Shown piece by piece: positions 222-31,907 of a stretch of DNA of 40,482 bases; position 1 is the first letter of the stretch, and every line of letters starts with the position of its first letter. Under the pieces are notes generated by a model that saw only the letters and a list, made by a program, of their open reading frames with translations, did no database searches and was not told the DNA's origin. Source of the stretch: a virus; IMG/VR virus record IMGVR_UViG_3300009373_000018, positions 1 through 40,482 of that record; one strand, written 5' to 3'. The position numbers were made by a program, and so were the translations under genes.

Positions 222-1262
222 TTACAGTTTTTGTTCCGATATCTGTCCGATTTGACCCCTATTTTTTAGTGATTTGACCCCTTTTTCAAGCTGATCTGAA
301 AGCTTTACATAGTCCTCTTTGAGTAGATCTAAGTACCATCGTTCTGTAACCTTTACGGAGCTATGGCCAAGAAACTTTGAGACTTCATATATCGAGGCCC
401 CGTTTCTCAATAAAATAGCTCCAGCTGCTCGGCGTAGATCGTGAGCGGTAAATTTAATTCCACAAACTATGGATGTTTTTTTGAATCTTTTCTGAATATA
501 TGTATAACCTTGTGGAATCGGAGCCACTCTTTCTTTCCATGATCGAAGGATCTCCATAGCTCGATTTGATAATTCTACTCGATGCTGTTTGTTTCCTTCA
601 CCTAAAACAATGAATCTTTCTTGCTCATTGAAATCTAACCATGAGAATTTTTTTTGTAGAAGTTCTCTAGCCCTAGCTCCGGTTAGAAGATATAGCTCGA
701 TAGTATCTAAAGTCTCTTGATCTACATCAGCTGCTAGGATCTGAGAGATCTCGTTATCTGACAGGATCCTAACTTTCTTAATCTTTTCTCGCATAAACGA
801 GATGCGAGGAACGGTATCAATATACTCCATGGACTTCGCCCAATTGAGCATTGCTTTAACAGATCGAATGTCAGTATTGATTCCTCCTGGATGTCGATGG
901 GCATTCTCTAATTTGAATCGCTCGAAATGCTCCCGCTTTACCTTATTCACATCTCCTACGATATTAAAGAAATTTGTGAGTGCGAGACTAGTGCGACGGT
1001 AGGTATTATAGTGCCGGTTTCTCATCACCCAATCAAGATATATGTTGATGAGCTTCGAGAGTTTGATTGTCTTGGGCCTGGCGCGATCGTACCCATATTT
1101 CATCCGGGTGATCTCCGCCTGCTTCAGCTCGTAGATCTTGCGAGCTTCCGGTTCAGACATATACAAAAATTCCTTACGGTCCTTTCCTGAATTGGGATCA
1201 ATATAGCGAAGGAGAAAACAGGGTTGACGGATAGCCTTGGGATAAGGCTTGAGAGTAGCCAT
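222..1262 (-). CDS. int: Tyrosine site-specific integrase
   Basis: A 346-residue lambda-type integrase that would recombine attP with the tRNA-Asp attB. The N-terminal part resembles an arm-binding and core-binding region (to about residue 160). The C-terminal catalytic domain shows the expected residues: Arg197 in TGARARE, His274 and Arg277 in HDLRR, His300 in LGHSS, and nucleophile Tyr310 in ERWY. Its C-terminus abuts attL. The sequence before the ATG has no clear Shine-Dalgarno, so translation may be weak. It is the last gene of the leftward lysogeny operon. No excisionase adjoins it; the small DNA-binding protein at 7510-7713 is the best candidate for that role. Confidence 0.96.
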   Translation of the reverse strand: MATLKPYPKAIRQPCFLLRYIDPNSGKDRKEFLYMSEPEARKIYELKQAEITRMKYGYDRARPKTIKLSKLINIYLDWVMRNRHYNTYRRTSLALTNFFNIVGDVNKVKREHFERFKLENAHRHPGGINTDIRSVKAMLNWAKSMEYIDTVPRISFMREKIKKVRILSDNEISQILAADVDQETLDTIELYLLTGARARELLQKKFSWLDFNEQERFIVLGEGNKQHRVELSNRAMEILRSWKERVAPIPQGYTYIQKRFKKTSIVCGIKFTAHDLRRAAGAILLRNGASIYEVSKFLGHSSVKVTERWYLDLLKEDYVKLSDQLEKGVKSLKNRGQIGQISEQKL

Positions 1263-2215: not shown

Positions 2216-2419
2216 CTACATTTCCCTTACCTCGAGCATTGCGTCTGCCCATGCATAGGCCACCTTTGCTGTATATTCCATTTTTGATGCTTTAGGAATT
2301 AATGCTTGCATGGCTTTAGCTGCAAAATAATCTCGCAGTGACATCCCTTTATTTTGTGCAAAATCTGGACCAATTTGATGGGGAAATGCAGGTCCCCCAT
2401 CTTTTTTTTCTTCACTCAT
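2216..2419 (-). CDS. Small conserved phage protein of unknown function
   Basis: A 67-residue protein with the pattern GGPAFP, then GMSLRDYFAAKAMQALI, then YAWADAMLE, which recurs in small hypothetical proteins of many prophages. AGAAAGGA precedes the ATG on the minus strand. The function is not known to me. It is the first gene after the six-element hairpin array, so that array forms its upstream untranslated region if the operon is transcribed leftward from the methyltransferase. Confidence 0.8.
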   Translation of the reverse strand: MSEEKKDGGPAFPHQIGPDFAQNKGMSLRDYFAAKAMQALIPKASKMEYTAKVAYAWADAMLEVREM

Positions 2420-2452: not shown

Positions 2453-2536
2453 GGGCGGTGACAAGGCGAAAGGAGCATTCCCTTGGGGGGGAAAGCATTA
2501 TGGTATGGAGAATACCATTGAGAGAGGTCACCGCCC
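2453..2536. repeat. Stem-closed element 1 of 6 (84 nt)
   Basis: The ends GGGCGGTGAC (2453-2462) and GTCACCGCCC (2527-2536) pair perfectly. Inside are two further hairpins: GCaTTCCC with GGGAAaGC around 2475-2496, and ATGGTAT with ATACCAT (2500-2518, 5-nt loop). Together they suggest a three-way junction. On the plus strand a T-rich tail follows. The motif CGAAAGGAG occurs near the 5' side at 2467. Confidence 0.8.
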
Positions 2537-2561
2537 TAATTTCTTTTCTTTCTAATTTTTC

Positions 2562-2624
2562 GGACGGTGATAGCAACTAAATCAAGGACGAAAGGAGATG
2601 TTGATGATGAGACTATCACCGCCC
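2562..2624. repeat. Stem-closed element 2 of 6 (63 nt)
   Basis: GGACGGTGATAG (2562-2573) pairs with CTATCACCGCCC (2613-2624) at 11 of 12 positions. The inner stem ATCAA (2581-2585) with TTGAT (2601-2605) carries CGAAAGGAG in its loop. This is the shortest unit of the series. Confidence 0.8.
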
Positions 2625-2650
2625 TAGTTCTATTCACTTAACAAAAATCC

Positions 2651-2724
2651 AAGGGTAGTGACCACAAATGGGGCTTGGGAGTGGATTGAATCCCAAGCTA
2701 AGAAGGAGTGTGGCCACTACTCTT
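2651..2724. repeat. Stem-closed element 3 of 6 (74 nt)
   Basis: AAGGGTAGTGACCAC (2651-2665) pairs with GTGGCCACTACTCTT (2710-2724) at 14 of 15 positions, counting one G-T pair. A perfect inner 8-bp stem, GCTTGGGA with TCCCAAGC, spans 2673-2698. The arm is TA where element 1 has CG, and the partner strand changes to match. Five Ts follow on the plus strand (2723-2727). Confidence 0.82.
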
Positions 2725-2734
2725 TTTAAATGTT

Positions 2735-2803
2735 GGGCGATGATCAGATCGAAAGGAAACATCATATCATGGAGTAGGTGTGATTGAAGTATAATCACCG
2801 CCC
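2735..2803. repeat. Stem-closed element 4 of 6 (69 nt)
   Basis: GGGCGATGAT (2735-2744) pairs with ATCACCGCCC (2794-2803) at 9 of 10 positions. CGAAAGGAA lies at 2750. The inner pairing (ATCA with TGAT) is weak. TTTATTTTTT follows on the plus strand. Confidence 0.75.
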
Positions 2804-2813
2804 TTTATTTTTT

Positions 2814-2887
2814 AGAGTAGCAACCACTTTTGAGGTAGGTCCCTCTGAGAGGTGGGGCTCATACCTGAACTGAGCGGTTACTACTCT
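2814..2887. repeat. Stem-closed element 5 of 6 (74 nt)
   Basis: AGAGTAGCAACC (2814-2825) pairs with GGTTACTACTCT (2876-2887) at 11 of 12 positions. The inner stem AGGTA (2833-2837) with TACCT (2862-2866) encloses a GC-rich stretch. It uses the same TA-type arm as element 3. Confidence 0.78.
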
Positions 2888-2898
2888 TATTTGATTCT

Positions 2899-2970
2899 GG
2901 ACGATGATCCTTCATGATAAATTGTGAGATGACACATCCTTTGGGGATTTTTATCACCTGATCACCGCCC
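2899..2970. repeat. Stem-closed element 6 of 6 (72 nt)
   Basis: GGACGATGATC (2899-2909) pairs with GATCACCGCCC (2960-2970) at 9 of 11 positions. The inner stem TGATAAA (2915-2921) with TTTATCA (2950-2956) is perfect. A T-rich tail follows on the plus strand. It ends 25 bp from the stop codon of the methyltransferase gene. Confidence 0.75.
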
Positions 2971-2995: not shown

Positions 2996-3889
2996 TTAAA
3001 GCTGATTGTTAAAACGAAATTTTGAACCTTCTAAATACTCTTCAATAATATCGACACCAATCCAACGACGTTTTAGACGTTCACATACTTCTCCTGTAAC
3101 GTTGGATCCTGTAAATGGATCAATTACAAGATTACCTTCATCAGTAAGCATCTTAATAAAGAATTCTGGGAGACCAGCTGGATATCTTGCTGGGTGAGGT
3201 TTTATACCAGTTTCTCTACACATACGGAGATAACGGCTATTGCTTTCAGTATGTGAAAATTGGAGTAAATTTGGAGGAATGGCGCCTTTATGTCTTTTAT
3301 TGAATTTAGTAGATATCTGATGTCCGCTAGGACGAAGTTTTGCTTTATAACCATTCTTCAATAATAACTCCATGCTCTCACTATATGGCCTCAAGACATT
3401 CTTATTGCTTGCTTTGGGATGAGGATCTTTAGAAAGCCACCACATAAAATCTACAGCATCTTTAACTCTCTCACGACGAACTGTTACCCATTCCGCGGGA
3501 GTGGGAAGCTTAGCTGGATTATACCAAAAGAATTCTTGAGCAAGGTAAAATTTGAAGTTAGGTATCTTACAGAGTTCAAGTAGTAATTCGTATTGATATA
3601 GATTTTTGGTTGGTTGACCACGTGTCCAGCTACCACCGATATGAATTACTAAACTGCCTTTTTGTTTTAAAATGGTGTGAAAAATACATGCGAATTCTTT
3701 AAACCACTCTACATATTCTGTGGCATCAACATTTCCATATTCTTTCTTACGTTGTAGTGCAAAGGGAGGAGATGTCATTATAAGATCAACTTTGCCTTCA
3801 AGGGATTTATTTGAAAACAACTCTTTAGAGTCTCCCAAATAAGTTATTCCATATTCTGTTTCATAGTACGGTTTGGTATTTTTTAACAT
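2996..3889 (-). CDS. Type II DNA methyltransferase, N4-cytosine type (beta order)
   Basis: A 297-residue SAM-dependent DNA methyltransferase. The catalytic motif IV is TSPPF (residues 39-43) in MTSPPFALQRKKEYGN, the form typical of N4-cytosine enzymes. The SAM-binding motif I, DPFTGSN (257-263), is near the C-terminus, giving the beta order of motifs. It lies 13 bp downstream of a restriction-endonuclease-like gene on the same strand, so the pair forms a restriction-modification system and this enzyme would protect the lysogen's own DNA. The recognition sequence cannot be read from the protein. An N6-adenine specificity is possible but less likely with SPPF. The adjacent hairpin array begins 25 bp after its stop. 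Confidence 0.93.
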   Translation of the reverse strand: MLKNTKPYYETEYGITYLGDSKELFSNKSLEGKVDLIMTSPPFALQRKKEYGNVDATEYVEWFKEFACIFHTILKQKGSLVIHIGGSWTRGQPTKNLYQYELLLELCKIPNFKFYLAQEFFWYNPAKLPTPAEWVTVRRERVKDAVDFMWWLSKDPHPKASNKNVLRPYSESMELLLKNGYKAKLRPSGHQISTKFNKRHKGAIPPNLLQFSHTESNSRYLRMCRETGIKPHPARYPAGLPEFFIKMLTDEGNLVIDPFTGSNVTGEVCERLKRRWIGVDIIEEYLEGSKFRFNNQL

Positions 3890-3902
3890 TGATCGCTCTC
3901 TA

Positions 3903-5276
3903 TTATGGCAACTCTAGTTTTTTTATTTCCATAGCACGTTCTGCTTCCCGGTTCAGGGTGTTAGCTATAAATGTGGGATTTTCTGCGATCTTTTGAAGAT
4001 CTGTTGAATCTAGGAGGATCACGTTTAGGTTTGTAGAATTCATTACGTGTTGGGAATATGCCCTTGCATCACTGCTAATATTGCCTGTAGAAACCACCAT
4101 CACAACATTTGATTTTAGCTGAAGTGTTAATCCAACTTCTTTGGCTACATCATCGAGACGAACAAATTTTGTGTTTTTGCATTGAATTTGCCACCGAGAG
4201 AAAATAAGACGTGTACCCTCAAAGATCAAATCAACTTCGGCTCCCCCAGTAGCTGCCCCACGAAGGCGGGTTGCCACATATTTGAGGTCAATTAATCTCA
4301 TTAGGTAGAATGCAAGGGCTTCCAATGCCAATCCTTTGATGTGTCTATCGGATGACTTCAACTCTTCAAGAATTTCTGGAAGAGCCTTCCGTAGCATTGG
4401 GCGGAGATCTGAGTGAGCTTGACTTTCAAGACTACTAATTAATGGTTCAATGAGGTCAGTTCGTATTTTGTCTGTAAGCCGCACCTCAAAAGGCTTGGCT
4501 CCTCTTCCGGCTGCTTTTGTACCACGTTCAAGAGATATGAAACCTGCTTCCTGGAGAGGATAGAGTATAGTTTTAGGCAGCATTTTCTCATTGAACTGAA
4601 CACCATATGTTGTGCTGGCCAATTTCTCCACATCATTTGACAAATAAGGACCGTTATCACCTAGGTTTGCGAGAGTTTTTAGGAAAGCCCTTTGCTCATC
4701 AGTTAACATAGAAACTTCATCTATTGATTCTGAAGATGTACCAATAACCTCCTCAAGGCGCTTAGTATCTATTTGCCAGTCCTTAGAAGTCACAACACCA
4801 GCCTTTTCCAACCATAACCGCATTATGCTTGGATGTTTCCCGCCCCTGGGGAAATAAACCTCCCTTTCTGCTAACCAAGCACGCAAACTTAGAAGATTTA
4901 CCTTATCTCCCCTAGCCTGAATATCTTGAACAGTTTGTATTACTATCAATCCTTTAAGATTTACCAAGATGTTTTGTGCAAAAACACGATATAATTCATC
5001 GGGAGTCTTTTTCAGAGAGAGAAGCTGTTTACCGAAATCTGTTAATGTTCCATCACGATTTAGGAGGAGGTAGGCAATCATTCCCAGTTTACAATTGTTC
5101 GCCAACTTTCCGCGGTTATAATCACTGGTTAGATGGGATTCAAAGTATTCGAGCCTTATGGCATCTTCAAGGGCATGCCAATCCCCACTATGTTCTTCTG
5201 CAAACTCTAAGACTCGAACTAAATCGATCTGGCTTGGGGAGAATTCGCTACCGAATGGAAGATCACTTTTTACCAT
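3903..5276 (-). CDS. Restriction endonuclease with Mrr-like PD-(D/E)XK domain
   Basis: A 457-residue protein. The C-terminal third carries a nuclease core of the Mrr_cat type: Glu319 in LALEAL, Asp349 in GGAEVDLIF, and Gln365-Cys-Lys367 in WQIQCKN. The first 300 residues look like winged-helix or DNA-recognition modules (for example LTDFGKQLLSL, LSNDVEKLA and LLYPLQEAGFISLERGTK-like segments). The partner methyltransferase follows 13 bp downstream. Together they would cut unmodified incoming DNA, protecting a lysogen against other phages. AGGATC precedes the ATG. Having the endonuclease gene first means protection must come from transcription order, enzyme kinetics or pre-existing methylation. 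Confidence 0.88.
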   Translation of the reverse strand: MVKSDLPFGSEFSPSQIDLVRVLEFAEEHSGDWHALEDAIRLEYFESHLTSDYNRGKLANNCKLGMIAYLLLNRDGTLTDFGKQLLSLKKTPDELYRVFAQNILVNLKGLIVIQTVQDIQARGDKVNLLSLRAWLAEREVYFPRGGKHPSIMRLWLEKAGVVTSKDWQIDTKRLEEVIGTSSESIDEVSMLTDEQRAFLKTLANLGDNGPYLSNDVEKLASTTYGVQFNEKMLPKTILYPLQEAGFISLERGTKAAGRGAKPFEVRLTDKIRTDLIEPLISSLESQAHSDLRPMLRKALPEILEELKSSDRHIKGLALEALAFYLMRLIDLKYVATRLRGAATGGAEVDLIFEGTRLIFSRWQIQCKNTKFVRLDDVAKEVGLTLQLKSNVVMVVSTGNISSDARAYSQHVMNSTNLNVILLDSTDLQKIAENPTFIANTLNREAERAMEIKKLELP

Positions 5277-5336
5277 TTTCTGATCCTATATAGAATTTAA
5301 TTCCTCCTCGCCACGCTATCTTTATATGAATTTTTA

Positions 5337-5534
5337 TTATGATGTAGGTTTATGGCCGGCCTTATTAACCATAGACTTTCTCACACTGCTTAAAAACTCA
5401 TCCCATATCTTAAGGTACTGTTCCTTATCTGACTTAATACTTGTACCAGAATCATGTTGCACCTCTAAATGCGTACGTAATAATTCAAATGCAACATCCT
5501 GTGGTTTTTTCCCAACACAACAGCAATCACACAT
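5337..5534 (-). CDS. Small cysteine-rich-start protein, unknown
   Basis: A 65-residue protein beginning MCDCCCVGKKPQDVAF, with four cysteines within the first six residues, then an amphipathic helical region (FELLRTHLEVQ) and a second helix (YLKIWDEFLSSVRKSM). The ribosome-binding site GGAGG is strong and 8 bases before the ATG. The cysteine cluster could bind a metal, but no family is recognised. It is co-directional with the repressor upstream and the restriction gene downstream. Confidence 0.7.
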   Translation of the reverse strand: MCDCCCVGKKPQDVAFELLRTHLEVQHDSGTSIKSDKEQYLKIWDEFLSSVRKSMVNKAGHKPTS

Positions 5535-5896: not shown

Positions 5897-6652
5897 TCAT
5901 CGAGGCTTCACATGAACTACTTTATGATAAAAAACAATCTGATCGACTGTAAGCGTAGTTTTATGAGGTTTATAATCAGGATTAAGACTTATTAGATCAA
6001 TTTTATCTCCGTGGAACCTTATTTCCTTAACCATGGTTTCTTCAGAATCTTTCAGCTTTACTACAACTCTGTCTTTATTTTTCACTGTTGCAGCTGGACT
6101 ACCCCAGACTATATCACCAGGTCGAAATACTGGATACATTGATTCACCATATATTGAATCAACCCTTAGCGCATAAGCCGTAATATCTTTAAGATCGTAT
6201 GGTCTGACTAGCCACTCTTCAGCTGCTCCAACAGGATATCCCATATCATCAAAAGCCGCTCCTGTTCCTGCACCAATATTCCCTATTAAAGGAACACGTA
6301 GCCCTTCAATATCTGGAGGAGCCCAAAATGCATTCTTTGGTCGATCAGGTGAAGGAGGAAACTCCTCACCAGGCTTCAACTCTCGATCCTTAAACTCACA
6401 CTCAGTATGCTTATCGTTCCAAATAATATCTTTTTTAAAAACGTCTGCTAAGCTATTCAAATTACCTTCGTGAGGTTTTCCTTTTCCTAGCCTCCATCTC
6501 CACAAAGTATTTGGTCGAATTCCTATCTTTTTAGCAAGCAAACCTTGTTTCCAAGATTCAGCATCTTTCGAGTTCAACAACTCTTTAACAGATTCAATTA
6601 CGGGTTTCATATTCGAAATATAGTCTATCCTTGTTTCCTTTATATCTTCCAT
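5897..6652 (-). CDS. LexA/CI-like lysogeny repressor, S24 autoprotease
   Basis: About 251 residues from the ATG at 6652. The N-terminal helix-turn-helix lies around residues 36-70 (QGLLAKKIGIRPNTLWRWRLGKG). The C-terminal peptidase S24 domain has a putative cleavage site Ala128-Gly129 in GNIGAGT, catalytic Ser171 in GESMYPVFRPGDIV and catalytic Lys209 in MVKEIRF. RecA-stimulated self-cleavage would therefore induce the prophage. An upstream ATG at 6682 overlaps a TATAAT-like -10 on the minus strand, so I prefer 6652. The gene is divergent from the Cro-like gene and heads the leftward operon with the restriction-modification genes. Confidence 0.93.
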   Translation of the reverse strand: MEDIKETRIDYISNMKPVIESVKELLNSKDAESWKQGLLAKKIGIRPNTLWRWRLGKGKPHEGNLNSLADVFKKDIIWNDKHTECEFKDRELKPGEEFPPSPDRPKNAFWAPPDIEGLRVPLIGNIGAGTGAAFDDMGYPVGAAEEWLVRPYDLKDITAYALRVDSIYGESMYPVFRPGDIVWGSPAATVKNKDRVVVKLKDSEETMVKEIRFHGDKIDLISLNPDYKPHKTTLTVDQIVFYHKVVHVKPR

Positions 6653-6666
6653 TTGTAAAGATTTCC

Positions 6667-6703
6667 TTGACAAACAGTCCATTATAGATTACATTTGGAA
6701 TGT
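6667..6703 (+). promoter_or_regulatory. Rightward early promoter with overlapping operator
   Basis: A perfect -35 TTGACA (6667-6672) is followed by a 17-bp spacer and a -10-like TACATT (6690-6695). The perfect inverted repeat ACATT-TGG-AATGT (6691-6703) covers the -10, as a repressor operator would. On the other strand TATAAT (6681-6686, reverse) can serve as the -10 of the repressor promoter with a poor -35. The predicted rightward start near 6702 lies only about 5 bases from the ATG of the Cro-like gene, so that mRNA may be nearly leaderless. Confidence 0.68.
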
Positions 6704-6965: not shown

Positions 6966-7072
6966 TATTGTTTCAATCAGATCCCAATCGGTAGGATCCA
7001 GCATGATCAAATCTGAGAATCCTTCTAATCACTTACTACATAAAGCCAGCCACAAATTTGCGGGAGAGGACC

Positions 7073-7513
7073 ATGTTCAATGTTGAGCGGAGTTTTGCGA
7101 ATCTACTTTATCAGAAGTTTATCTTTGGTAAGGTCTATGCGGTCAAGGCCATTGCCCCGGAGATCGATGTTTCCCCATCAACTCTATACGATTATATCCA
7201 TGGTAGACTCACTTTTCCTCCGGATAAAATTCCTTTACTCTACAAAGCCACCGGTGATTGGGATTTCATTCGATTTTTTGTTGAGGATTCTGATCTCGCT
7301 GTCATACGTAAGCTACTGGCAAATCCATCCGGAGAACAAATAATCATGCAGGGATTGACAGTATGTGATCTTTCCGGTCAGGTAGCAGCTGAGATCAAAA
7401 CAGCAATGGCAGATAATAGACTTACAAGACAGGAGCGAAAGGACATTGTTAAACGAATCAAACCTCTAATACATACACTGGCAGCATTGGAAAAGGATTT
7501 GGAAAAGGAATGA
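7073..7513 (+). CDS. CII-like phage regulatory protein (CP76-like)
   Basis: A 146-residue protein from the ATG at 7073, which has GGGAGAGG four bases upstream. An in-frame TTG at 7058 would add five residues but lacks such a site. The N-terminal half reads as a helix-turn-helix (AIAPEIDVSPSTLYDYIHGR). FPPDKIPLLYKATGDWDFIRFF then matches the layout of phage CII/CP76-type regulators, where a helical C-terminal domain oligomerises. The C-terminus has NRLTRQERKDIVKRIKPLIHTL. It probably influences the lysis-lysogeny choice or early transcription. It is followed by a coupled small DNA-binding protein. Confidence 0.78.
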   Translation: MFNVERSFANLLYQKFIFGKVYAVKAIAPEIDVSPSTLYDYIHGRLTFPPDKIPLLYKATGDWDFIRFFVEDSDLAVIRKLLANPSGEQIIMQGLTVCDLSGQVAAEIKTAMADNRLTRQERKDIVKRIKPLIHTLAALEKDLEKE

Positions 7514-8018: not shown

Positions 8019-8053
8019 AAGGAGCTTCTGAGAGGGGATCTCAGGAGCTCCTT
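8019..8053 (+). terminator. Strong 15-bp hairpin between early gene blocks
   Basis: AAGGAGCTTCTGAGA (8019-8033) pairs with TCTCAGGAGCTCCTT (8039-8053), with a single T-G pair and a 5-nt loop. There is no T-run after it (ACAATATA), so it may be a processing or stability element or a weak terminator that lets early transcription continue. It contains AAGGAG, which would be hidden in the stem. The next gene's own site GAAAGGAA lies 33 bp further on. Confidence 0.5.
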
Positions 8054-12691: not shown

Positions 12692-12816
12692 CAATCGCTA
12701 ACATATTGAAAAAACTCCAGTTTTCTGCTATAAGCGAGCCGAGACCAGGAGTTGGCCAGGTGGAGAGCGGCCTGGGGCTTGCGAGAAATTTATTGAATTC
12801 TTATGAGACGCATTAG
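12688..12816 (+). CDS. 42-residue coupled small protein
   Basis: A 42-residue gene starting MTIANILKKLQFSAISEPRP, with the ATG overlapping the previous stop (ATGA) and GGAAAT upstream. It ends 14 bases inside the Dam-type gene. It bridges what would otherwise be a 110-bp gap in a tightly packed operon, which supports it as real. No family is recognised. Confidence 0.5.
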   Translation: MTIANILKKLQFSAISEPRPGVGQVESGLGLARNLLNSYETH

Positions 12817-13603
12817 GCCTGTTTTTGGGTATTTCGGTTCAAAATATAATATAATGAGACATTTGCTGCCAATCATACCCTCCCATCATACTTATGTGGA
12901 ATCCTTTTGTGGTACGGCTGCTATGCTCATGGCAAAGCGACCATCCTATGTTGAAATAATAAACGATTTGAATGATGATATTATAAACCTTTTCAATATT
13001 CTTAGAGATCCAATACTTAGACAACAACTTATCGAAGAGATCGAATTAACTCCATATTCCAGAAAGGAGCATGAGCTCTCTTATTATCCTTGCGAGGACG
13101 TCCTCGAAAAAACCAGGAGATTTTTGATTCGCTCTAATCAGGGTTGGCAGGGCCGGACAACGAAATCTGGCTGGAAAACAGGGGAGAAGGAATTTAGATC
13201 AATTCATATATGGACGAAACTCCCACAACGACTTACGCGTTTTGCAGAACGCTTAAAGAACGTTCAAATTGAATGTCGGCCTGCAGTAGAAATAATAGAG
13301 AAACGAGATACACCTGATACTTTCCATTTCATAGATCCTCCCTATCCTGAAAAAACTTTAAAACAGAAGAGACGGGGATATCTATATCATATGACAGATA
13401 GAGAACATGAAGAACTAATTGATCTTATTCTTGGCTTAAAAGGGAAAGTATTAATTACCATGAATGAAAATTCGATCTATGACAAACTGCTGCAGGACAA
13501 TTTTCGTAAGGATTATATAGATAGCATTGACTGTCGTCAACAGCCAAGATTTGAAACTATCTATAGAAATTTTGAGGTCTATGGTCCTCTTTTTAGGAGT
13601 TAA
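12803..13603 (+). CDS. dam: D12-class DNA adenine methylase (Dam-like)
   Basis: A 266-residue class alpha (D12) adenine methyltransferase. Motif X is GYFGSK (residues 9-14), motif I is ESFCGTAAML (33-42; the usual FxGGG glycines are partly replaced by Thr/Ala), and catalytic motif IV is DPPY (178-181). Enzymes of this class usually make N6-methyladenine in GATC, though I cannot prove the target. It is an early gene without an endonuclease partner, so it probably protects replicating phage DNA from host nucleases or alters regulation. GATC is abundant in the genome. Confidence 0.88.
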   Translation: MRRIRPVFGYFGSKYNIMRHLLPIIPSHHTYVESFCGTAAMLMAKRPSYVEIINDLNDDIINLFNILRDPILRQQLIEEIELTPYSRKEHELSYYPCEDVLEKTRRFLIRSNQGWQGRTTKSGWKTGEKEFRSIHIWTKLPQRLTRFAERLKNVQIECRPAVEIIEKRDTPDTFHFIDPPYPEKTLKQKRRGYLYHMTDREHEELIDLILGLKGKVLITMNENSIYDKLLQDNFRKDYIDSIDCRQQPRFETIYRNFEVYGPLFRS

Positions 13604-15129: not shown

Positions 15130-15446
15130 TGACAAAGATTTTCAGCTTAATGGAAAACAAAGAGTTCAAGGACGATATTGGTGGGGATCTGACTCCTGAT
15201 GATATGCCGAATGAGGACATGACAATCGTGGCTCTGGAAATGGGAGTAGATGTTGCCATTAAAATGTGTCAAAGTCTCGGAGGGTTAAGTATCTATATTC
15301 CTGGGAATGGATGGAGAGAGATCCGAAAAAGATATATCGAAAAGCATAGGGATGATATGAATACAAAACGAATGGCCATCACACTCGGGACTACAGAGCG
15401 ATGGATTCGTAAGGTATTAAACGATATCAACGCTAATCAATTATGA
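15129..15446 (+). CDS. Mor-like transcription activator
   Basis: A 105-residue protein from the ATG at 15129 (TGATG junction). It matches the Mu Mor/C family: a dimerisation helix (DMTIVALEMGVDVAIKMCQSL), then the hallmark GGLSIYIPGN (residues 51-60), then a C-terminal helix-turn-helix (MAITLGTTERWIRKVL, 82-97). In Mu such proteins bind dyad sites upstream of weak promoters and recruit RNA polymerase. Here it is the last early gene, ideally placed to switch on the structural genes. It overlaps the opposing gpG-like gene by 14 bp at their 3' ends. Best candidate to bind the palindromes at 19864-19922. Confidence 0.82.
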   Translation: MTKIFSLMENKEFKDDIGGDLTPDDMPNEDMTIVALEMGVDVAIKMCQSLGGLSIYIPGNGWREIRKRYIEKHRDDMNTKRMAITLGTTERWIRKVLNDINANQL

Positions 15447-15939
15447 AGTGTAGCATGGTATTTTTTATTCTATCAAGATCTTCATCAGTCAGCTGCAGGA
15501 ATGGTCTGGCAGGAATTTTAAATCCAGGATGGGTAACAGATTTTACTGGATGCTCAGCTCCTGGCCAAAAAAGAGCTTTTTTATTTCGTGGTCTGATAAC
15601 AAAAGGACCGGTCTCTCCCCCAAATTGATGCACAGCTGCATATTCCACATTTGTTCCTACCCTAGCAAAAGTCGCGCCAGATGATGGCGTGATGGATCCG
15701 GCCAATCGGCCGGTTGCCTGTAACATTTTCCCTGTATAGCCTTTTTCTTTTCGATTGGCCAAGGTAGATGGTGCCAGAGCCGGCCATTTAGGGCGACCTT
15801 CCTGCTCGAAATTGGCCTCAACTGCATCCAACATATCTTCTGCAACGGCCCTCATCATTGCTCGTGGATTCTTCGCACGTCGCATGGCCTTTTTGAGAAA
15901 GGCAATTGTTTCCTCATCGTGTATTTCGATGGTGATCAT
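15433..15939 (-). CDS. Mu gpG-like virion morphogenesis protein
   Basis: A 168-residue protein of the phage virion morphogenesis (Mu gpG) family. Signature segments are PRAMMRAVAEDMLDAVEANFEQEG, KWPALAPSTL, LQATGRLAGSI, VGTNVEYAAVHQFG and IPARPFLQL. In Mu this protein takes part in head or tail completion. It is the last gene of the inverted packaging operon. Its stop codon lies inside the Mor-like gene end, so two operons meet with 14 bp of shared sequence and no room for a terminator. Confidence 0.88.
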   Translation of the reverse strand: MITIEIHDEETIAFLKKAMRRAKNPRAMMRAVAEDMLDAVEANFEQEGRPKWPALAPSTLANRKEKGYTGKMLQATGRLAGSITPSSGATFARVGTNVEYAAVHQFGGETGPFVIRPRNKKALFWPGAEHPVKSVTHPGFKIPARPFLQLTDEDLDRIKNTMLHFIID

Positions 15940-16728
15940 CTAAGCCAGTCCTGACTGTGTCAGAATATCTGAATCATAGTCACTGAGATTGGGGGTCCAT
16001 AAAGCCTGGCCGGGATTGTTTGAAAATCCGAGATCAGGAGAAATAAGCTCACCTGTAGATGGATCCTTATAAAATGTTTGCTGGATACCGGTTTCAGGAT
16101 CCGCTTTGGCCTCCATCTTTCCTGTACCCTGTTCAACAGTCAATCCTTTTGATTCCACCTGATCAGCTGTTAAAGCTCTGACACGGCACCGGCATCGATA
16201 TCCATTAGGGGGGTAATGGGTATTCCAAAAGGGATCATCAGCATGAAAAACCTTCTCATGTAATTTCTTATGTTCTGGACGGGCAATATCATCATTAAGA
16301 GAGATATATTGCAAATATGGCCTTAGTTCTTTGTTTTCCTGGAAAGCCTTCCACCGGCCGGCATTATATGAGCTCATCATATTTGTCCGAAAAATTGTAT
16401 TAAGACGCCATGGAGATCCGAGTAGTACCTCTTCTCCCTCTACAAGTCCCTTTCCCCACCATCCATGCTTCTTGAGTGTAGGTTCAAGCTCCTCGCGGAA
16501 TTTATTAAGTGTGAGACCGTCTTTAATGGCAAGGCGGACTTCATTACGGATATCCATCAGAACGTCCATCTGAGTGACTCTGGCTACTGTGAATGCCTGA
16601 TTATGAGCCTCATTCAGCATATCTCTCCAATCCCATGTGATTTTATAGCCTTTAGACTCGAAGTATTTGATAGCGTCCTTTGGTTTTAGTCCAATGACGT
16701 ATGAGAGATTGACCTTACTTGGAGGCAT
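15940..16728 (-). CDS. Mu gpF-like / SPP1 gp7-type minor head protein
   Basis: A 262-residue protein. The central part has the RNTNM-type helix in FRTNMMSSYNAGRWKAF, and near residue 195 the motif PPNGYRCRCRVRAL, the CxC pattern typical of the phage Mu F-like/SPP1 gp7 minor head family. These proteins sit inside or at the portal vertex. It is immediately upstream of the gpG-like gene and overlaps the portal gene by 14 bp, the usual Mu order. It is shorter than Mu gpF because the C-terminal extension is missing. Confidence 0.88.
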   Translation of the reverse strand: MPPSKVNLSYVIGLKPKDAIKYFESKGYKITWDWRDMLNEAHNQAFTVARVTQMDVLMDIRNEVRLAIKDGLTLNKFREELEPTLKKHGWWGKGLVEGEEVLLGSPWRLNTIFRTNMMSSYNAGRWKAFQENKELRPYLQYISLNDDIARPEHKKLHEKVFHADDPFWNTHYPPNGYRCRCRVRALTADQVESKGLTVEQGTGKMEAKADPETGIQQTFYKDPSTGELISPDLGFSNNPGQALWTPNLSDYDSDILTQSGLA

Positions 16729-18151
16729 TTAATTTCCCCCATACTTGAGACACGAAAATTGTCCGAGTGAGCAGCTCCTCCAGATCCTTGGTTTTCATTT
16801 TGGGATATGTCTCAGCCAGTTTTTCCATGACATCATTATAGCTGAGTCCTTTCTGGATCATCTTAGTAACCGGTTTCAACATCATTTCAGCTTGACTCTG
16901 CAGTTCCTTATCTGAGAGCTCTATATTATCCAGGGCTCTCTGGTCTGGCTTCATAGGCCGTCTTGTATATTCAGTAAAACCAGGTTCCCCTCCTGGAGCT
17001 TTGGGAACTACCTCGAGATCCTGTTCCTCTAAACTATAATGTTCCATGTAATATTTCTTGGTGAATTGGACTCCGCTTTCATTTAGGGTCTTATCGCGGT
17101 CCGCTAGGTCCTTTCTGACGCCGCTTTCTTCAAACATTGAGAATTTTGGCAGCTCTGACGCGTCACTATTCCAGTTCAATTCATCAATCCATTGGATCAG
17201 CTGATTAAATGTATCCTCCACAAGCCGCTGATCAGCCAGGGCAATCCATTCCATTACTTGAATACCACTTTGTGATTTGGCATAACTCCCTGTTTCCGTA
17301 ACATCCATGGATACTGCCTGGCCAAGGATAGCCTCACTGATTTCACGATTACTGGAAATAATTTGTGACTCATAAACGTCCACTGTGGATTTACCTTTAA
17401 CTTCCAGGGGCTCAACTGAGGCATTATCCGGAATGGCAGCTACGGCATCGTGGACCATCTTTTCCAGCATATCCATTAAATCATCGATCTCCGGATCGGA
17501 AGCACCTGGTGGATGCTTGCCAAGTAAAAAGGGCATCCCATATTTTTCAATGAATAACATCCGGAATTTCTGACCGCCTTTTTTGAATGCTACCGGCCAG
17601 AAACACTTTGACATGATCCGCTCACCATAAGGATTTTTATAAGTGGCGTTATGTTGAGGATTCAGGAATTTCCGCGGTGGTAGTTCAATGCCCTGGAAAT
17701 TGTCTTTAGGACGGAATTTCAATTGATTTTCCTGACCATAGAGGAACCATTCAACTGGCTTTGCAATGACGGCCTCTGGCAGAATAAGGCTATCAATAAA
17801 ATGCCACATGACCTCTAAGGGTTGGAAGCCGTAAAAGGGGGCATTCAGTATATCACTGATGAGCTTATATACATTAAGCCGTTTGAATAGGTCCTCTATA
17901 ATTTTTGATTTATCAGATTTATCTTTACCGCGATCGATTTCCCATTTCAGCTTTAAAACGCCAGCTTTTCTTGCCGTCACACAAGCGCTTACCCTGGCAT
18001 CGGCCATAATCTCTTTATAAACTGAGATATCTTTACCGGCTTTCCGTAAGACAAAATCCGGATCCGGTAAGATCTGAGAGATAGCGAAATAGTCCATGGA
18101 TCTTGAACGTGTTACGATTTCTTTTGATAAAGATTGGGTTGCTTGGGCCAT
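16715..18151 (-). CDS. Portal protein (DUF935, Mu gp29-like)
   Basis: A 478-residue portal of the DUF935 family, the twelve-subunit ring at the capsid vertex through which DNA is packaged. Family features include ITRSRSMDYF-like N-terminal text, DARVSACVTARKAGVL, GFQPLEVMWH, KPVEWFLY, MPFLLGKHPPGASDPE and SEAILGQAVSMDVTETGS. The C-terminal 60 residues (ELQSQAEMMLKPVTKMIQKG and on) form a long helical tail typical of the family. It lies one base downstream of the large terminase gene. Confidence 0.92.
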   Translation of the reverse strand: MAQATQSLSKEIVTRSRSMDYFAISQILPDPDFVLRKAGKDISVYKEIMADARVSACVTARKAGVLKLKWEIDRGKDKSDKSKIIEDLFKRLNVYKLISDILNAPFYGFQPLEVMWHFIDSLILPEAVIAKPVEWFLYGQENQLKFRPKDNFQGIELPPRKFLNPQHNATYKNPYGERIMSKCFWPVAFKKGGQKFRMLFIEKYGMPFLLGKHPPGASDPEIDDLMDMLEKMVHDAVAAIPDNASVEPLEVKGKSTVDVYESQIISSNREISEAILGQAVSMDVTETGSYAKSQSGIQVMEWIALADQRLVEDTFNQLIQWIDELNWNSDASELPKFSMFEESGVRKDLADRDKTLNESGVQFTKKYYMEHYSLEEQDLEVVPKAPGGEPGFTEYTRRPMKPDQRALDNIELSDKELQSQAEMMLKPVTKMIQKGLSYNDVMEKLAETYPKMKTKDLEELLTRTIFVSQVWGKLNASK

Positions 18152-18152
18152 T

Positions 18153-19418
18153 TTAATAAGTCTCCATTATTTCTTGTGAATGTTTTGCACGTCTGGATCT
18201 AGCAGTTGGAATAGGTGATCCACCACCTTTCATATAAAGTAGGGCCTGTGATGTGGAATCCACCTGATCATTGAATTCCGCTGCAGGGAAATCAGCGCAT
18301 TCATTGATATAATCATTGACCCAGGGAGCATTCTCCGGCAAAGAACAATTACCTGCCTCAATAGTAGGAGTGACAGCATGAACTCTGGCAATTTTATCGC
18401 TGTCCATTTTAAAGGGCTTGATTGGGAGTGAGGTTTCCCTTTGAAGTTCCTGGATTACACTGATACCGCTGGCTTTATCTTCAATTACAATAACATCAGG
18501 TTTATATTTATTGTACATAAAAACCACCTGGCGTTTTAATTCCGGAAATTCTACTCGAGCTCTCCAACAATTAATTAGATAAAAGCCTGTTTTATATTGA
18601 TTCCAGGTAGTGCAAACAGAATAGCTATTCTCATCGCTTTTCTTAAATGCAGTATCCCATGATTGAATTTTCCTTATGGGTCTTTCCAGGGGTAGATCTC
18701 GATAATACTTCCACCAGGCACGTTTAATGATCTCTGCCTCAACATCATCAATGAACTCTCCGCCGATCTCCTGGCGCCTGATTGCCGGGGATACTTCAGA
18801 AACCAGTTCATCAATTTCAAAAGGATCCAGAAATGGATTGTCATAACTCGTGAATTGGAAATCTGTCCAGGTTGTCCTATCCTGTTTTGCTTTCTTGAAC
18901 AGAGTGAAAAAAAGTGCCTCATCGCTTTTGACGCGCTTTCCCTTGGGGGTGCCACCAATGATTCCATTCGCTTTGTAATCCATTAACATAGGTCTCACGG
19001 CATTATACCATATGTATGGATTTTTCAGAACGATACCGGCCTCATTGATAAAGACAAACTTGTATCCGAATCCTTCAATATTCTGAGGTTTCTCAGCACT
19101 TCTGAAATCACACAGAGCATTACCGATAGTGAGCTCCTTTTTTTGTTGGCGCCATTTCCACCATCCTTCCGGTAGAGCTGATAGAGTTGGCATGAAATAT
19201 CTCTCAACATATCGATCACAGTTGGATTGGGTAGTATCTACCCATAAAAGCGGGGAAAACTCTTCCATCATAGCTTCAACGTAGAAATTGGAAACTCCTC
19301 GAGTAAGACCAAAGCGACGTCCTTTTCCTATAACCTTAAACCTGGAATTGCATCCAAAAAGGATATCATTCTGGCCTGGATGATAGCTAATTCTCAGGCG
19401 TTTTCTCAGTGATGACAC
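18153..19418 (-). CDS. terL: Terminase large subunit
   Basis: A 421-residue motor and nuclease. The ATPase part shows an atypical Walker A-like GKGRRFGLT (31-39) and Walker B FVFINEAG (121-128). The RNase H-like nuclease has Asp255 in QSWDTAFK, Glu313-Asp314 in IEDKASG and Asp384/Asp387 in NDQVDSTSQAL. The sequence is of the Mu gp28-like type, shorter than Mu's own protein. Start is GTG (19418), inside the small terminase gene (32-bp overlap). It is inverted relative to the capsid gene. Confidence 0.92.
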   Translation of the reverse strand: MSSLRKRLRISYHPGQNDILFGCNSRFKVIGKGRRFGLTRGVSNFYVEAMMEEFSPLLWVDTTQSNCDRYVERYFMPTLSALPEGWWKWRQQKKELTIGNALCDFRSAEKPQNIEGFGYKFVFINEAGIVLKNPYIWYNAVRPMLMDYKANGIIGGTPKGKRVKSDEALFFTLFKKAKQDRTTWTDFQFTSYDNPFLDPFEIDELVSEVSPAIRRQEIGGEFIDDVEAEIIKRAWWKYYRDLPLERPIRKIQSWDTAFKKSDENSYSVCTTWNQYKTGFYLINCWRARVEFPELKRQVVFMYNKYKPDVIVIEDKASGISVIQELQRETSLPIKPFKMDSDKIARVHAVTPTIEAGNCSLPENAPWVNDYINECADFPAAEFNDQVDSTSQALLYMKGGGSPIPTARSRRAKHSQEIMETY

Positions 19419-19821
19419 GTTCTATCTCGATCTTGAGGGTCTGCTCATCACCTGTGGGCTCATCGGAGAGCAGACGTCTTAATTTGACAAGTCTATCCAG
19501 ATCCATTGTGGAATCGATATCGATTTTTTTCTTCTTTAGCCTCTTATCATACAGATCAAGTGATTCTTTGATAAGTTTCAGTTCTCGCTGCTTCATTTCC
19601 TCAAGGGCATCTTTGGCCATGAGGTGGAAGTCAGCCAGATCCTCCAGCTCCCTCGCTCGGATCCGTTTTTTCCAATTGTAGCGGGAACTCCATTTCTTGA
19701 TAGTAGAGAGAGACCGTTTGAACTTTTGGGCAACCTTTTTGAGTGTCCGTTTTTCATAGAGCAGATAGTAAAACTCAAAGGCTTTTTTCTGCAGCTCTGT
19801 TTCTCTAGGAAAGTATGCCAT
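19387..19821 (-). CDS. terS: Terminase small subunit (helix-turn-helix)
   Basis: A 144-residue DNA-binding protein. Residues 25-55 form a helix-turn-helix (RTLKKVAQKFKRSLSTIKKWSSRYNWKKRI), the YNW-type pattern found in small terminases, then a charged helical oligomerisation region. It should recognise the packaging site. The overlap with the large terminase gene is 32 bp. The ATG at 19821 has no good ribosome-binding site; the frame is closed upstream so no earlier start exists. The five tandem palindromes begin 43 bp before it. Confidence 0.82.
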   Translation of the reverse strand: MAYFPRETELQKKAFEFYYLLYEKRTLKKVAQKFKRSLSTIKKWSSRYNWKKRIRARELEDLADFHLMAKDALEEMKQRELKLIKESLDLYDKRLKKKKIDIDSTMDLDRLVKLRRLLSDEPTGDEQTLKIEIERVITEKTPEN

Positions 19822-28678: not shown

Positions 28679-29446
28679 ATGTCTTTTGAGAGATATTCTA
28701 AAACTATGGGCAACAACTCTAAGGATCTTTTACCGTTTCACGGGCAGAGTTTCAATAAGGGAGTGGGTGGTCAGACTGCCGCCCTGATCCGTCAGGCGGG
28801 GAAACAATTATACATTCCCCAGGATGACTCACTTGTGGGAGCATGGCTCTTTGATGAAGGTAAAGGATTGTTTACGAGGGATCATAGTATTTATAGGAAT
28901 CATGGAACGATTGTTGGTGCAGATTGGGTGGCTGATGGATTGGATTTTGTAGATACAAATAGTGATTATATTAATGTTGATGGGTTTGTTACAGAATCAC
29001 AATATCTAACTGTGAGTGTATGGTTGGCGAGCACACAGTCTGGAATCAATAATCTTCTTGTAGATGGTAATCCTGTTAGATTTATATGTGGGTGGAATAC
29101 AACTACTTCGGGCACGCTCGGTTTATATAGTGGCGGGTGGAAAGAATTTGGTGCCGCACCGAATGATGGTCTATGGCATCACATAATTTGGATGGCAGAT
29201 TATGACAAGGCAAGAATGTATGTTGATGGTTCTTTAGTTGGTACGGAACAGCAAATGACTCCGATTGATTTGAAGTCTGCTACCCAATTTAAAATTGGTT
29301 CAGCTTACGCTGGGGACGAATATTACTTTGATGGTATTATTCATTCCGTCTTTATCTACAACCGAGCCCTCGCCGCCGAAGAAATATCCAATATCTACAA
29401 TGCTGGAATGTATTTAACTCAAGAACATTTGGAGTATGAGATATGA
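28679..29446 (+). CDS. LamG-domain tail protein 1
   Basis: A 255-residue protein. After a 50-residue leader (FERYSKTMGNNSKDLLPFHGQ), one concanavalin A-like/LamG domain spans about 55-240: LVGAWLFDEGKG, LDFVDTNSDYINVDGF, WHHIIWMADYDKARMYVDGSLVG, FKIGSAYAGDEYYFDGII and ALAAEEISNIYNAG. These domains bind carbohydrates and often sit on phage tails. Two bases after the large fibre; likely an adhesin acting on the host surface. Confidence 0.8.
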   Translation: MSFERYSKTMGNNSKDLLPFHGQSFNKGVGGQTAALIRQAGKQLYIPQDDSLVGAWLFDEGKGLFTRDHSIYRNHGTIVGADWVADGLDFVDTNSDYINVDGFVTESQYLTVSVWLASTQSGINNLLVDGNPVRFICGWNTTTSGTLGLYSGGWKEFGAAPNDGLWHHIIWMADYDKARMYVDGSLVGTEQQMTPIDLKSATQFKIGSAYAGDEYYFDGIIHSVFIYNRALAAEEISNIYNAGMYLTQEHLEYEI

Positions 29447-31161
29447 GTTATTCAAGGGATAGAGGATCGATCATTGTCAAACCTTCAATGCTAATCGACG
29501 CAGACGCTTTCAAGATCGGTGGCTCGCCGTTGGTTGTACTACATGATCCTGTCACGGGAGAGCAAGAAATCTTGGGATTTAATCATCCTGCGGTTATTCC
29601 GGGATGTTTCGGCTTATGGGTATTTGATGAAAAGAATACAAGCTTATTGTATGATAAGAGCGAGGAAGGAAATAATCTGACGGGTACAAGTATAAGTGCA
29701 GCATTATATAAAGATACAATATTTGGTGTAGCCTATGATTTCCCGGGGGCAGCAGACTATTTTTCAATAGCTGATAATCCAAGTATTAGTCCGACAAAAC
29801 AGATCACGATTGAGGCTATTGTTAATGCTGATATTACCTCTGGAACACGTTGTATCGTTTATAAACTGAATACTTACGCTCTTTTCATATCTGATAATAT
29901 TTACGGTCAAATCTTTGACGGAGCAGTTGAAAAACGTGCAAATGGAACCACTGCGCTTTCTACAGGGAAGTGGTATCATGTCGCTATGACTTATGACGGT
30001 GTTGTTGTAAAGGTTTTTCTAAATGGCGAAGAAAATGGGTTGCTTAATTATAGTGGAGACATTGATGACACCGCAAATTCATTATTCGTGGGGAAAACTT
30101 CCGGTGCTTCTGGTTATTTTGATGGCAAGATAGCAGCAGTCCGTTGTTGTAGTCGTGCTCTCAAACCCCACGAATTTATGCACCATTGGTATTTTAATAC
30201 TCTTGTTAATGGAAAGTTCAATTCGGATGGGGCAGTTCTATTCGATCCCCAAGTCTCAGCATTCAAGGCTCGCAAGGTTTTCACGGTACAAGCCGATTGG
30301 GACAGTAGGGGACAGATGAAATCAAGCAATATCATTGTAAACAACATTCGTGGTGTACCAGATGAAAGCTTTGTGCCAATGCAGAATGATCCGAGCAAGT
30401 TGATCGTGGGTGGATTGCCACTTGTTGACGATAAGACAGTGGCTTGCTGGATTCTGGACGGTTCAATTAATGAAGACGGAAAGGAAGTTGATCTCGGTGC
30501 GGGCGGTCATCATGCGACAATAAATAATTTGGTAAGTCCCAACGATTATCGCAATACCCGGTTTGGGAGATATTGGGATCTTGGTGGCTCGGAAGACTAC
30601 TTTTCAGTTCCTGATCACGACGACTTTTCATTTGGAGACGGATCAAATGATTCGCCGTTCAGCATTGAAGCACTTATTAAGATGGATGCCGCAAGTCTCT
30701 TTAGAATTATAACTAAAGGTATTTATAATACAGACGCAGAATGGGAGTTTAGTTTAGGTGGCGACAGTAAATTATTTGGTCATATATACGATGAAAGCGT
30801 AGCCTCTTGTTTTATTGGTCGTTCATATCAAACTGCATTGACTTCTTATCAGGGAGAATGGATTCATGTCGTGATGACTTATAACGGTAGTGGAGCATCC
30901 TCGGGGATTAAATTATATCTTGATGGTATTCAAGTTGATAATGCGAACGATGAGACTAATCCCGGGAGTTATGTTGCAATGGAGAATTTGACCCATGATG
31001 TCTGGATTGGAAGATCGGATACAACTTACGCCAACGGTCTGATCGCATTCGTCCGCATTTCTAATGTAGTACGAGAAGCTGATGAAATAGCTCACAATGC
31101 ACAATTGATTCATCGTGCCAACGCTCAATTCCAGGATCTTCTACTTCCGGTGGGGGATTAA
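29443..31161 (+). CDS. LamG-domain tail protein 2 (two domains)
   Basis: A 572-residue protein with two LamG/concanavalin A-like domains. The first spans about 48-245 (GLWVFDEKNTSLLYDKS, WYHVAMTYDGVVVKVFLNGEE, GKTSGASGYFDGKIAAVR). The second spans about 330-560 (VACWILDGSINEDGKEVDL, WIHVVMTYNGSGASSGIKLYLDG, IGRSDTTYANGLIAFVRIS). Between them, KARKVFTVQADWDSRGQMKS is unassigned. The start overlaps the previous stop (ATGA). No GGATCC occurs in the whole block, unlike flanking phage genes. Confidence 0.78.
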   Translation: MSYSRDRGSIIVKPSMLIDADAFKIGGSPLVVLHDPVTGEQEILGFNHPAVIPGCFGLWVFDEKNTSLLYDKSEEGNNLTGTSISAALYKDTIFGVAYDFPGAADYFSIADNPSISPTKQITIEAIVNADITSGTRCIVYKLNTYALFISDNIYGQIFDGAVEKRANGTTALSTGKWYHVAMTYDGVVVKVFLNGEENGLLNYSGDIDDTANSLFVGKTSGASGYFDGKIAAVRCCSRALKPHEFMHHWYFNTLVNGKFNSDGAVLFDPQVSAFKARKVFTVQADWDSRGQMKSSNIIVNNIRGVPDESFVPMQNDPSKLIVGGLPLVDDKTVACWILDGSINEDGKEVDLGAGGHHATINNLVSPNDYRNTRFGRYWDLGGSEDYFSVPDHDDFSFGDGSNDSPFSIEALIKMDAASLFRIITKGIYNTDAEWEFSLGGDSKLFGHIYDESVASCFIGRSYQTALTSYQGEWIHVVMTYNGSGASSGIKLYLDGIQVDNANDETNPGSYVAMENLTHDVWIGRSDTTYANGLIAFVRISNVVREADEIAHNAQLIHRANAQFQDLLLPVGD

Positions 31162-31163
31162 TC

Positions 31164-31907
31164 ATGGGACGAATAATTGAAAGATCAACACTCGCAAAGA
31201 TAGCCAAGTCTCAGAAACCGCTCTCAATGCTCGGAAGCAAGGGCTATTTCGATCCTGCTAATATTCTCGGTTCTTATCCAAGACCGTTTTATGTCGAAGC
31301 CGGTAGCATCATAGTAGTTAATTGTTTCGATGATAATATTGTAGACAGCATTTTGCTTGATTTTACGGAGAATCAAAATGGAACGATCACTGGAGCAATC
31401 CTTAGTTCAGAGAGCAAATTCCGGGAGTCATTATTATTCAATGGTAGTAGCGATTACATAGATTTTAGTAATCCAGCTATTTTTGATCTAACAAGCCAGA
31501 TCACATTAGAAGTGTGGATCAGGCTTAATAGTACAAGTGGTACACAAATTTTCATTGGTAAAGGGGGTACTGCTTGGGATCTCTTACTTAGTGGTGGTAA
31601 TTATAGAATTTTCATGAATAATGGGGATGTTACATGCCAAAGCAGTACAGGAGTAAATACGACGGATTGGCATTATATTGCGGCTACTTATGACGGAAGC
31701 AATGTCAGACTTTATTGTGATGGGGTTGAAATTGCCAGTGCAGCTGTTGTCGATTCAATTGATACGAATGCTAATAATGTTCGAATTGGTGCTACAGTAG
31801 CGCCTGCCAATTACTTAAATGGCTATTGTGCGGGAGCAAGAATATCAAATCGAGCCAAAACTGCAAATGAGATCCACGATTATTATAATGGATTAATGGG
31901 ATTATAA
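31164..31907 (+). CDS. LamG-domain tail protein 3
   Basis: A 247-residue protein with a 50-residue leader (GRIIERSTLAKIAKSQKPL) and one LamG domain: IVVNCFDDNIVDSILLDF, SLLFNGSSDYIDFSNPAIF, WHYIAATYDGSNVRLYCDG, VRIGATVAPANYLNGYCAGARISNRAKTANEIHDYY. Same architecture as LamG protein 1 but a different leader. Its stop overlaps the next start by one base. Confidence 0.78.
   Translation: MGRIIERSTLAKIAKSQKPLSMLGSKGYFDPANILGSYPRPFYVEAGSIIVVNCFDDNIVDSILLDFTENQNGTITGAILSSESKFRESLLFNGSSDYIDFSNPAIFDLTSQITLEVWIRLNSTSGTQIFIGKGGTAWDLLLSGGNYRIFMNNGDVTCQSSTGVNTTDWHYIAATYDGSNVRLYCDGVEIASAAVVDSIDTNANNVRIGATVAPANYLNGYCAGARISNRAKTANEIHDYYNGLMGL

Follow-up and report, generated by a model that had tools for sequence, protein, structure and literature searches.

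The window analysed here, a whole record of 40,482 bp, belongs to a temperate phage, in which a leftward gene run starts at the S24 repressor and ends at the integrase (Table 1). The order of the genes in this run is repressor, Mrr-type endonuclease, M.PvuII-family methyltransferase, three small genes and integrase, and the methyltransferase matches PDB entry 1boo with an E value of 4e-94. The restriction-modification pair (2996-5276) combines this methyltransferase with an Mrr_cat endonuclease rather than one of PvuII type, as does a homologous locus (L261). At 1360-2152 lie two small overlapping genes, apparently membrane-anchored, and the 185-aa product of this region gives a weak PADLOC match to '1TM-TIR' (E 7e-6). 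Elsewhere in the window, a 15-bp inverted repeat (AAGGAGCTTCTGAGA/TCTCAGGAGCTCCTT, 8019-8053) stands directly 5' of the CGAAAGGA ribosome-binding site that serves the 8087 gene, the early region (12803-13603) encodes another DNA methyltransferase, an adenine enzyme of the D12 class, the terminase, portal and virion morphogenesis genes (15433-19821) are on the minus strand, flanked by plus-strand blocks, and four successive genes with Laminin_G_3 lectin-like domains (28679-33079) possibly encode receptor-binding protein variants.

Behind the methyltransferase gene (PvuII type) of the leftward prophage operon, six stem-closed units in tandem (2453-2970), each 63-84 bp long, form an array that fills the gap up to the following gene; its edges lie 25 nt past the methyltransferase stop (2996) and about 34 nt short of the start of the 67-aa gene (2419), these two genes being on the same strand. 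The arms of the units form twelve related 10-mers of alternating orientation in the lysogeny region; arms such as GGGCGGTGAC have no self-complementarity and are not palindromes themselves. The unit centres are unevenly spaced, and the best direct-repeat family in the array has 17 nt and four copies, with 76-94% identity to its reference. Units 3 and 4 on the one hand, and units 5 and 6 on the other, look like copies of one duplicated pair.

Table 1. Position, strand and main characteristics of the array units and of the neighbouring phage genes.
Feature	Position	Strand	Remarks
Integrase	222-1262		end of leftward operon
67-aa gene (phrog_2201 family)	2216..2419	-	next gene downstream; SD-like AAAGGAA just beyond array
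Unit 1	2453..2536	-	84 nt; transcribed last; 10-bp closing stem GGGCGGUGAC/GUCACCGCCC; two inner hairpins; CUCCUUUCG predicted unpaired
Linker 1-2	2537..2561		25 nt; T-rich on plus, A-rich in a minus-strand RNA
Unit 2	2562..2624	-	63 nt; stem of 12 bp including one G-U; loop with CUCCUUUCG predicted unpaired
Unit 3	2653..2722	-	70 nt; TA-type stem GAGUAGUGGCCAC/GUGGUCACUACCC with one G-U and one A-C; inner hairpin of 8 bp; CUCCUUCUU predicted unpaired
Unit 4	2735..2803	-	69 nt; stem of 12 bp including two G-U; UUUCCUUUCG predicted half-exposed
Unit 5	2815..2886	-	72 nt; TA-type stem of 14-15 bp including two G-U; inner hairpin
Unit 6	2899..2970	-	72 nt; transcribed first; stem of 11 bp, two G-U; inner hairpin GUGAUAAA/UUUAUCAU
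Other linkers	2625-2652, 2723-2734, 2804-2814, 2887-2898		between successive units
M.PvuII-family N4-cytosine DNA methyltransferase	2996..3889	-	upstream of array in transcription; stop 25 nt before unit 6
Restriction endonuclease-like gene (Mrr_cat)	3903..5276	-	partner of methyltransferase
S24 repressor	5897-6682		start of leftward gene run
CII-like regulator	7058-7513
Mu-type head genes			portal, protease, gp36/gp37-like
tRNA-Asp			right end of window; partial repeat near left end

The array is real. A uniform detection rule (10 consecutive pairs with at most two wobbles and a loop of 40-65), applied to both strands, finds precisely the six units and no extras on the minus strand; on the plus strand it gives three places, of which one is spurious. 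In 100 dinucleotide shuffles of the region the minus strand yielded no unit in 91 cases and a single unit in 9, and the plus strand at most two units; the six units of 63-84 nt that the first-pass annotation had described between the methyltransferase and the next gene are, thus, all recovered. Relative to shuffled sequences, the folding z-scores of units 1-6 are -5.9, -5.7, -6.1, -2.7, -4.8 and -4.9 on the minus strand and -5.4, -4.3, -4.8, -1.7, -4.3 and -0.8 on the plus strand. Inner hairpins, which had been ascribed to every unit, are convincing in units 1, 3, 5 and 6 (in unit 6 on the minus strand), but not in units 2 and 4.

Pairing and strand of the closing stems

The twelve outer pairs of the units were aligned with a register set by hand and with the loops replaced by N. 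In this alignment 94.4% of the cells are paired on the minus strand, a value which is partly built in, given that the register was picked from the same stems. Seven of the twelve closing pairs are changed on both sides (minus strand), and the covariation score lies above all 500 shuffles (0-1 of the 500 reach the values). Better controls than absolute pairing are given by the permutation of partners, in which the own partners (68 of 72 paired) are equalled by 8 of the 720 permutations, and by a register in which the arms pair across the linker, where the same five units have 46 of 60 positions paired, against 58 of 60 in the closed-unit register. The pairwise differences between arms comprise 99 transitions and no transversion, a pattern expected if the stems evolve between G-C and A-U through G-U steps, and the extension of the stem past the 10-mer is specific to each unit.

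These results bear on several claims made from a first reading of the locus. The quoted 5' arms do fit one 10-mer, with transitions only, and the proposal that the arms are selected to pair finds support in the covariation, in the transitions-only pattern, in the preference for own partners and in the fold z-scores. As to the statement that most changes are matched on the other arm, seven of the twelve pairs are two-sided. The CG-to-TA change at positions 4-5 is probably one event, and independent double changes are few, since the unit pairs 3+4 and 5+6 look like a single pair that was copied. The covariation was, moreover, measured among six paralogous units of one locus, with some changes shared by descent (3/5, 4/6), and the statistical case for the stems rests on few independent changes. 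The matching of the arms could also be explained by template-switch repair of quasi-palindromes.

Concerning the strand, nearly all stem imperfections are A-C on the plus strand, which corresponds to G-U on the minus strand; paired stem cells amount to 94.4% on the minus strand versus 84.7% on the plus strand, and, relative to shuffles, all six units fold better on the minus strand. The minus strand being the coding strand of the operon, an RNA, if made, would be in sense and part of the mRNA. The evidence for such a leftward RNA is good but not overwhelming, given the few independent events. No terminator-like site (a GC-rich hairpin with a loop of 3-8 nt and a U-tract) occurs in 2453-2970 on either strand, and no array-specific promoter stands out, the number of promoter matches being equal to the shuffle mean.

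Relatives and known systems

With Rfam 15 at the gathering threshold, the tRNA is the sole match in the whole window and the array has none; a relaxed search gives sub-threshold chance matches (best E 0.03-0.05). No DNA match spanning the array was found in GenBank phages, and pattern scans of IMG/VR (with the unit and with two neighbouring arms) gave chance matches only. Across about 1,100 genomes from four phyla, pattern searching found no locus with a second neighbouring match. A detector of tandem stem-closed units, run on 258 loci including related phage loci, returned this array, GC-rich chance matches and one unrelated exact tandem repeat. The latter (L036:2727-3153) consists of four near-exact 114-bp repeats, every one of them closed by an inverted repeat of 10 bp (ATTCGTACCG/CGGTACGAAT). 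Stem-closed elements of another kind (GGGCGGTGATCG...CAATCACCGTCC, with longer complementary arms on the outside) occur at L019:1641-1728 and 5330-5416 and at L079:6447-6534; with two copies in one contig and similar interiors, they are probably a small dispersed repeat, unrelated to the array. A covariance-model search (148 genomes, E 1e-4) was uninformative, since the units themselves score only 23-29 bits.

The array is absent from two restriction-modification homologues, L259 and L261 (the latter with the endonuclease followed by the methyltransferase), and is thus not a fixed part of this module. IMG/VR searches with single proteins (methyltransferase, integrase, the 185-aa protein and portal) found no relatives; portal relatives show 35-51% identity and are scattered across many phyla. 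The exact tRNA-Asp pattern has no match in the genome contigs, the best identities (95-97%, in the phylum of G017) being too weak for a host assignment. Since the closest protein relatives are distant and the stems would drift, this absence of relatives is weak evidence. Within the window, the 10-mer (with at most two mismatches) occurs elsewhere at chance level overall and not at all in the repressor region, and no Nop-domain protein, processing enzyme, RNA-binding partner or transposase was recognised by Pfam among the 38 ORFs scanned.

In the literature we found no matching description, the nearest form being the TIGR arrays. TIGR-Tas arrays, which occur in phages, are tandem stem-loops processed to single stem-loop RNAs, and the present array resembles them in its tandem stem-loop units, variable interiors and phage location (PMC12045711). 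Their 8-12 nt dual spacers are flanked by boxes C/D (PMC12045711). The units described here differ from TIGR arrays in having one common stem sequence class. Although these arrays are the closest in working, we do not file ours under TIGR-Tas, because no Tas (Nop-domain) protein was recognised in the 38 window ORFs scanned by Pfam. REPINs and repetitive extragenic palindromes share the inverted-repeat ends which form a hairpin in intergenic DNA (PMC3116915, PMC3733652). However, the arms of our array are non-palindromic, its six copies stand in one tandem block with no dispersed copies found within the 40-kb record, and no REP-associated transposase was recognised among the scanned ORFs. As in CRISPR, palindromic repeated text alternates with unique sequence, but near-identical direct repeats are absent, linkers and arms vary and no cas gene was recognised; a CRISPR-like linker register was rejected, the covariation fitting the closed unit better (46/60 versus 58/60 paired). 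Type III toxin-antitoxin loci also have tandem structured RNA repeats in mobile elements. ToxI-like RNAs consist of near-identical short repeats, whereas these units have 63-84 nt and unrelated loops, and no ToxN/CptN/TenpN toxin was recognised beside the array (the neighbours are the methyltransferase, the endonuclease and three small proteins, and those scanned with Pfam gave no toxin match). Integron attC sites, too, are imperfect hairpins lined up in tandem, in which the ends are conserved and the centres vary. Their ends carry RYYYAAC/GTTRRRY boxes, which are absent from the unit ends (on reading the sequence), as are cassette genes between units, and no integron integrase was recognised. 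Every one of these readings (CRISPR, attC, REPIN and type III antitoxin), like that of terminators, lacks a defining feature, and the claim that the array belongs to no named family stands as far as Rfam (at gathering thresholds) and the systems compared here are concerned.

Loops and possible roles of the array

No two loops resemble each other more than expected by chance, in agreement with the divergence of loops already claimed, and loop matches elsewhere in the phage are not above shuffles. Nevertheless, text resembling GAAGGAG or CGAAAGGA had been reported for four units and is indeed present in units 1-4: the 8-mer UCCUUUCG is exact in the loops of units 1, 2 and 4 (of 2000 sets of shuffled loops, 8 contain an 8-mer common to three loops), while unit 3 carries CUCCUUCUU instead. 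The predicted fold of the array leaves CUCCUU free of pairing in units 1-3 (0.78-0.99), and UUCCUUUCG of unit 4 half unpaired. The exposed CUCCUU(U/C) text, in three or four units, is complementary to Shine-Dalgarno (SD) sequences, including the CGAAAGGA that precedes the 8087 gene and the AAAGGAA of the 67-aa gene, the latter being predicted to be open in the folded array. The predicted pairing of the loops with the start regions of the phage does not exceed that of shuffled loops (mean best -19.4 versus -18.6, sd 0.55), and the best single duplex, between unit 3 and the gene at 12803, is equalled in 5% of shuffles, so that the SD complementarity amounts to a hint.

Our leading reading, which we hold tentatively, is that the array would be a tandem structured-RNA element within the leftward transcript of the lysogeny operon, from which single units, differing in their loops, may be processed. 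Possible, but rather unlikely, is that the hairpins simply remain in the operon mRNA, where they block 3'-to-5' decay or act as RNase sites, separating the methyltransferase part of the message from the integrase part, with loops that have no role. The operon strand, the exactly filled intergenic gap, the strong stems and the A-rich linkers are all consistent with this, but it leaves unexplained both the single 10-mer stem class set against unrecognisable loops and the UCCUUUCG common to three loops, and six copies exceed the need. An origin as mobile or copy-prone hairpin DNA of MITE or REPIN type, with the arms as terminal inverted repeats kept alike through recent copying or template switching and the interiors as passengers, is in our view unlikely. 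While the inverted-repeat ends, the unrelated interiors and the apparent duplication of units 3+4 and 5+6 would suit remains of this kind, there is no other copy in the 40-kb window or in the IMG/VR pattern scans, no target duplication is visible at the unit ends and no transposase, REP-associated or other, was recognised in the scanned ORFs; additionally, the arms are not palindromes and copying does not predict a G-U bias on one strand.

The twelve related 10-mers, alternating in orientation in the lysogeny region, might also suggest an array of 10-bp DNA-binding sites (operator- or centromere-like), which we consider highly improbable in view of the covariation within units, the unit-specific extension of the stems beyond the 10-mer, the absence of the 10-mer from the repressor region (and its chance level elsewhere) and the uneven spacing of the unit centres. 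Least probable of all is the earlier proposal of rightward (plus-strand) small RNAs or terminators against the flanking genes. The T-rich tails on which it was based are real (T 63, A 32, over all linkers), with fair U-tracts at units 3 and 4, but they are uneven (A exceeds T in linker 2-3), and this T-rich text 3' of the units on the plus strand corresponds to the A-rich linkers of a minus-strand RNA. The G-U pairs, nearly all of them on the minus strand, the better folding of that strand, the A-C mismatches of the plus-strand stems (84.7% of cells paired), the plus-strand folds of units 4 and 6 (equalled by about 7% and 20% of shuffles) and the empty terminator scan across the array, whose loops are far too long for the intrinsic type, all argue against it.

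Under the structured-RNA reading, each unit would be an independent module, in which compensatory and G-U changes maintain a 10-15 bp closing stem that holds a variable, partly single-stranded loop. The stems would serve as a common scaffold or as a recognition and cutting site, so that as many as six small RNAs, protected by their stems, might be yielded or displayed by the transcript; the loops, being exposed, would be the working part, acting on putative targets. We favour these roles of the stem (scaffold or recognition) and of the loop (payload) over mRNA protection because the stem class is conserved while loop similarity is lost; transcription, processing and the two roles are what we infer from the sequence. 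The most likely output of the loops would be translational control, via the complementarity of CUCCUU(U/C) to SD sequences. Bolder, and quite unlikely, is the idea of a new class of phage RNA array, in which six modules with a covarying common stem and diversified loops would be cut into small RNAs, each with a different target.

CRISPR and TIGR systems store several guides as arrays with fixed stems and variable loops. A phage array of this form without a recognised partner protein would be a candidate for an undescribed multi-RNA regulator or decoy and, even if it only stabilises the mRNA, it would offer, in one locus, a clean case of stem evolution through G-U steps.
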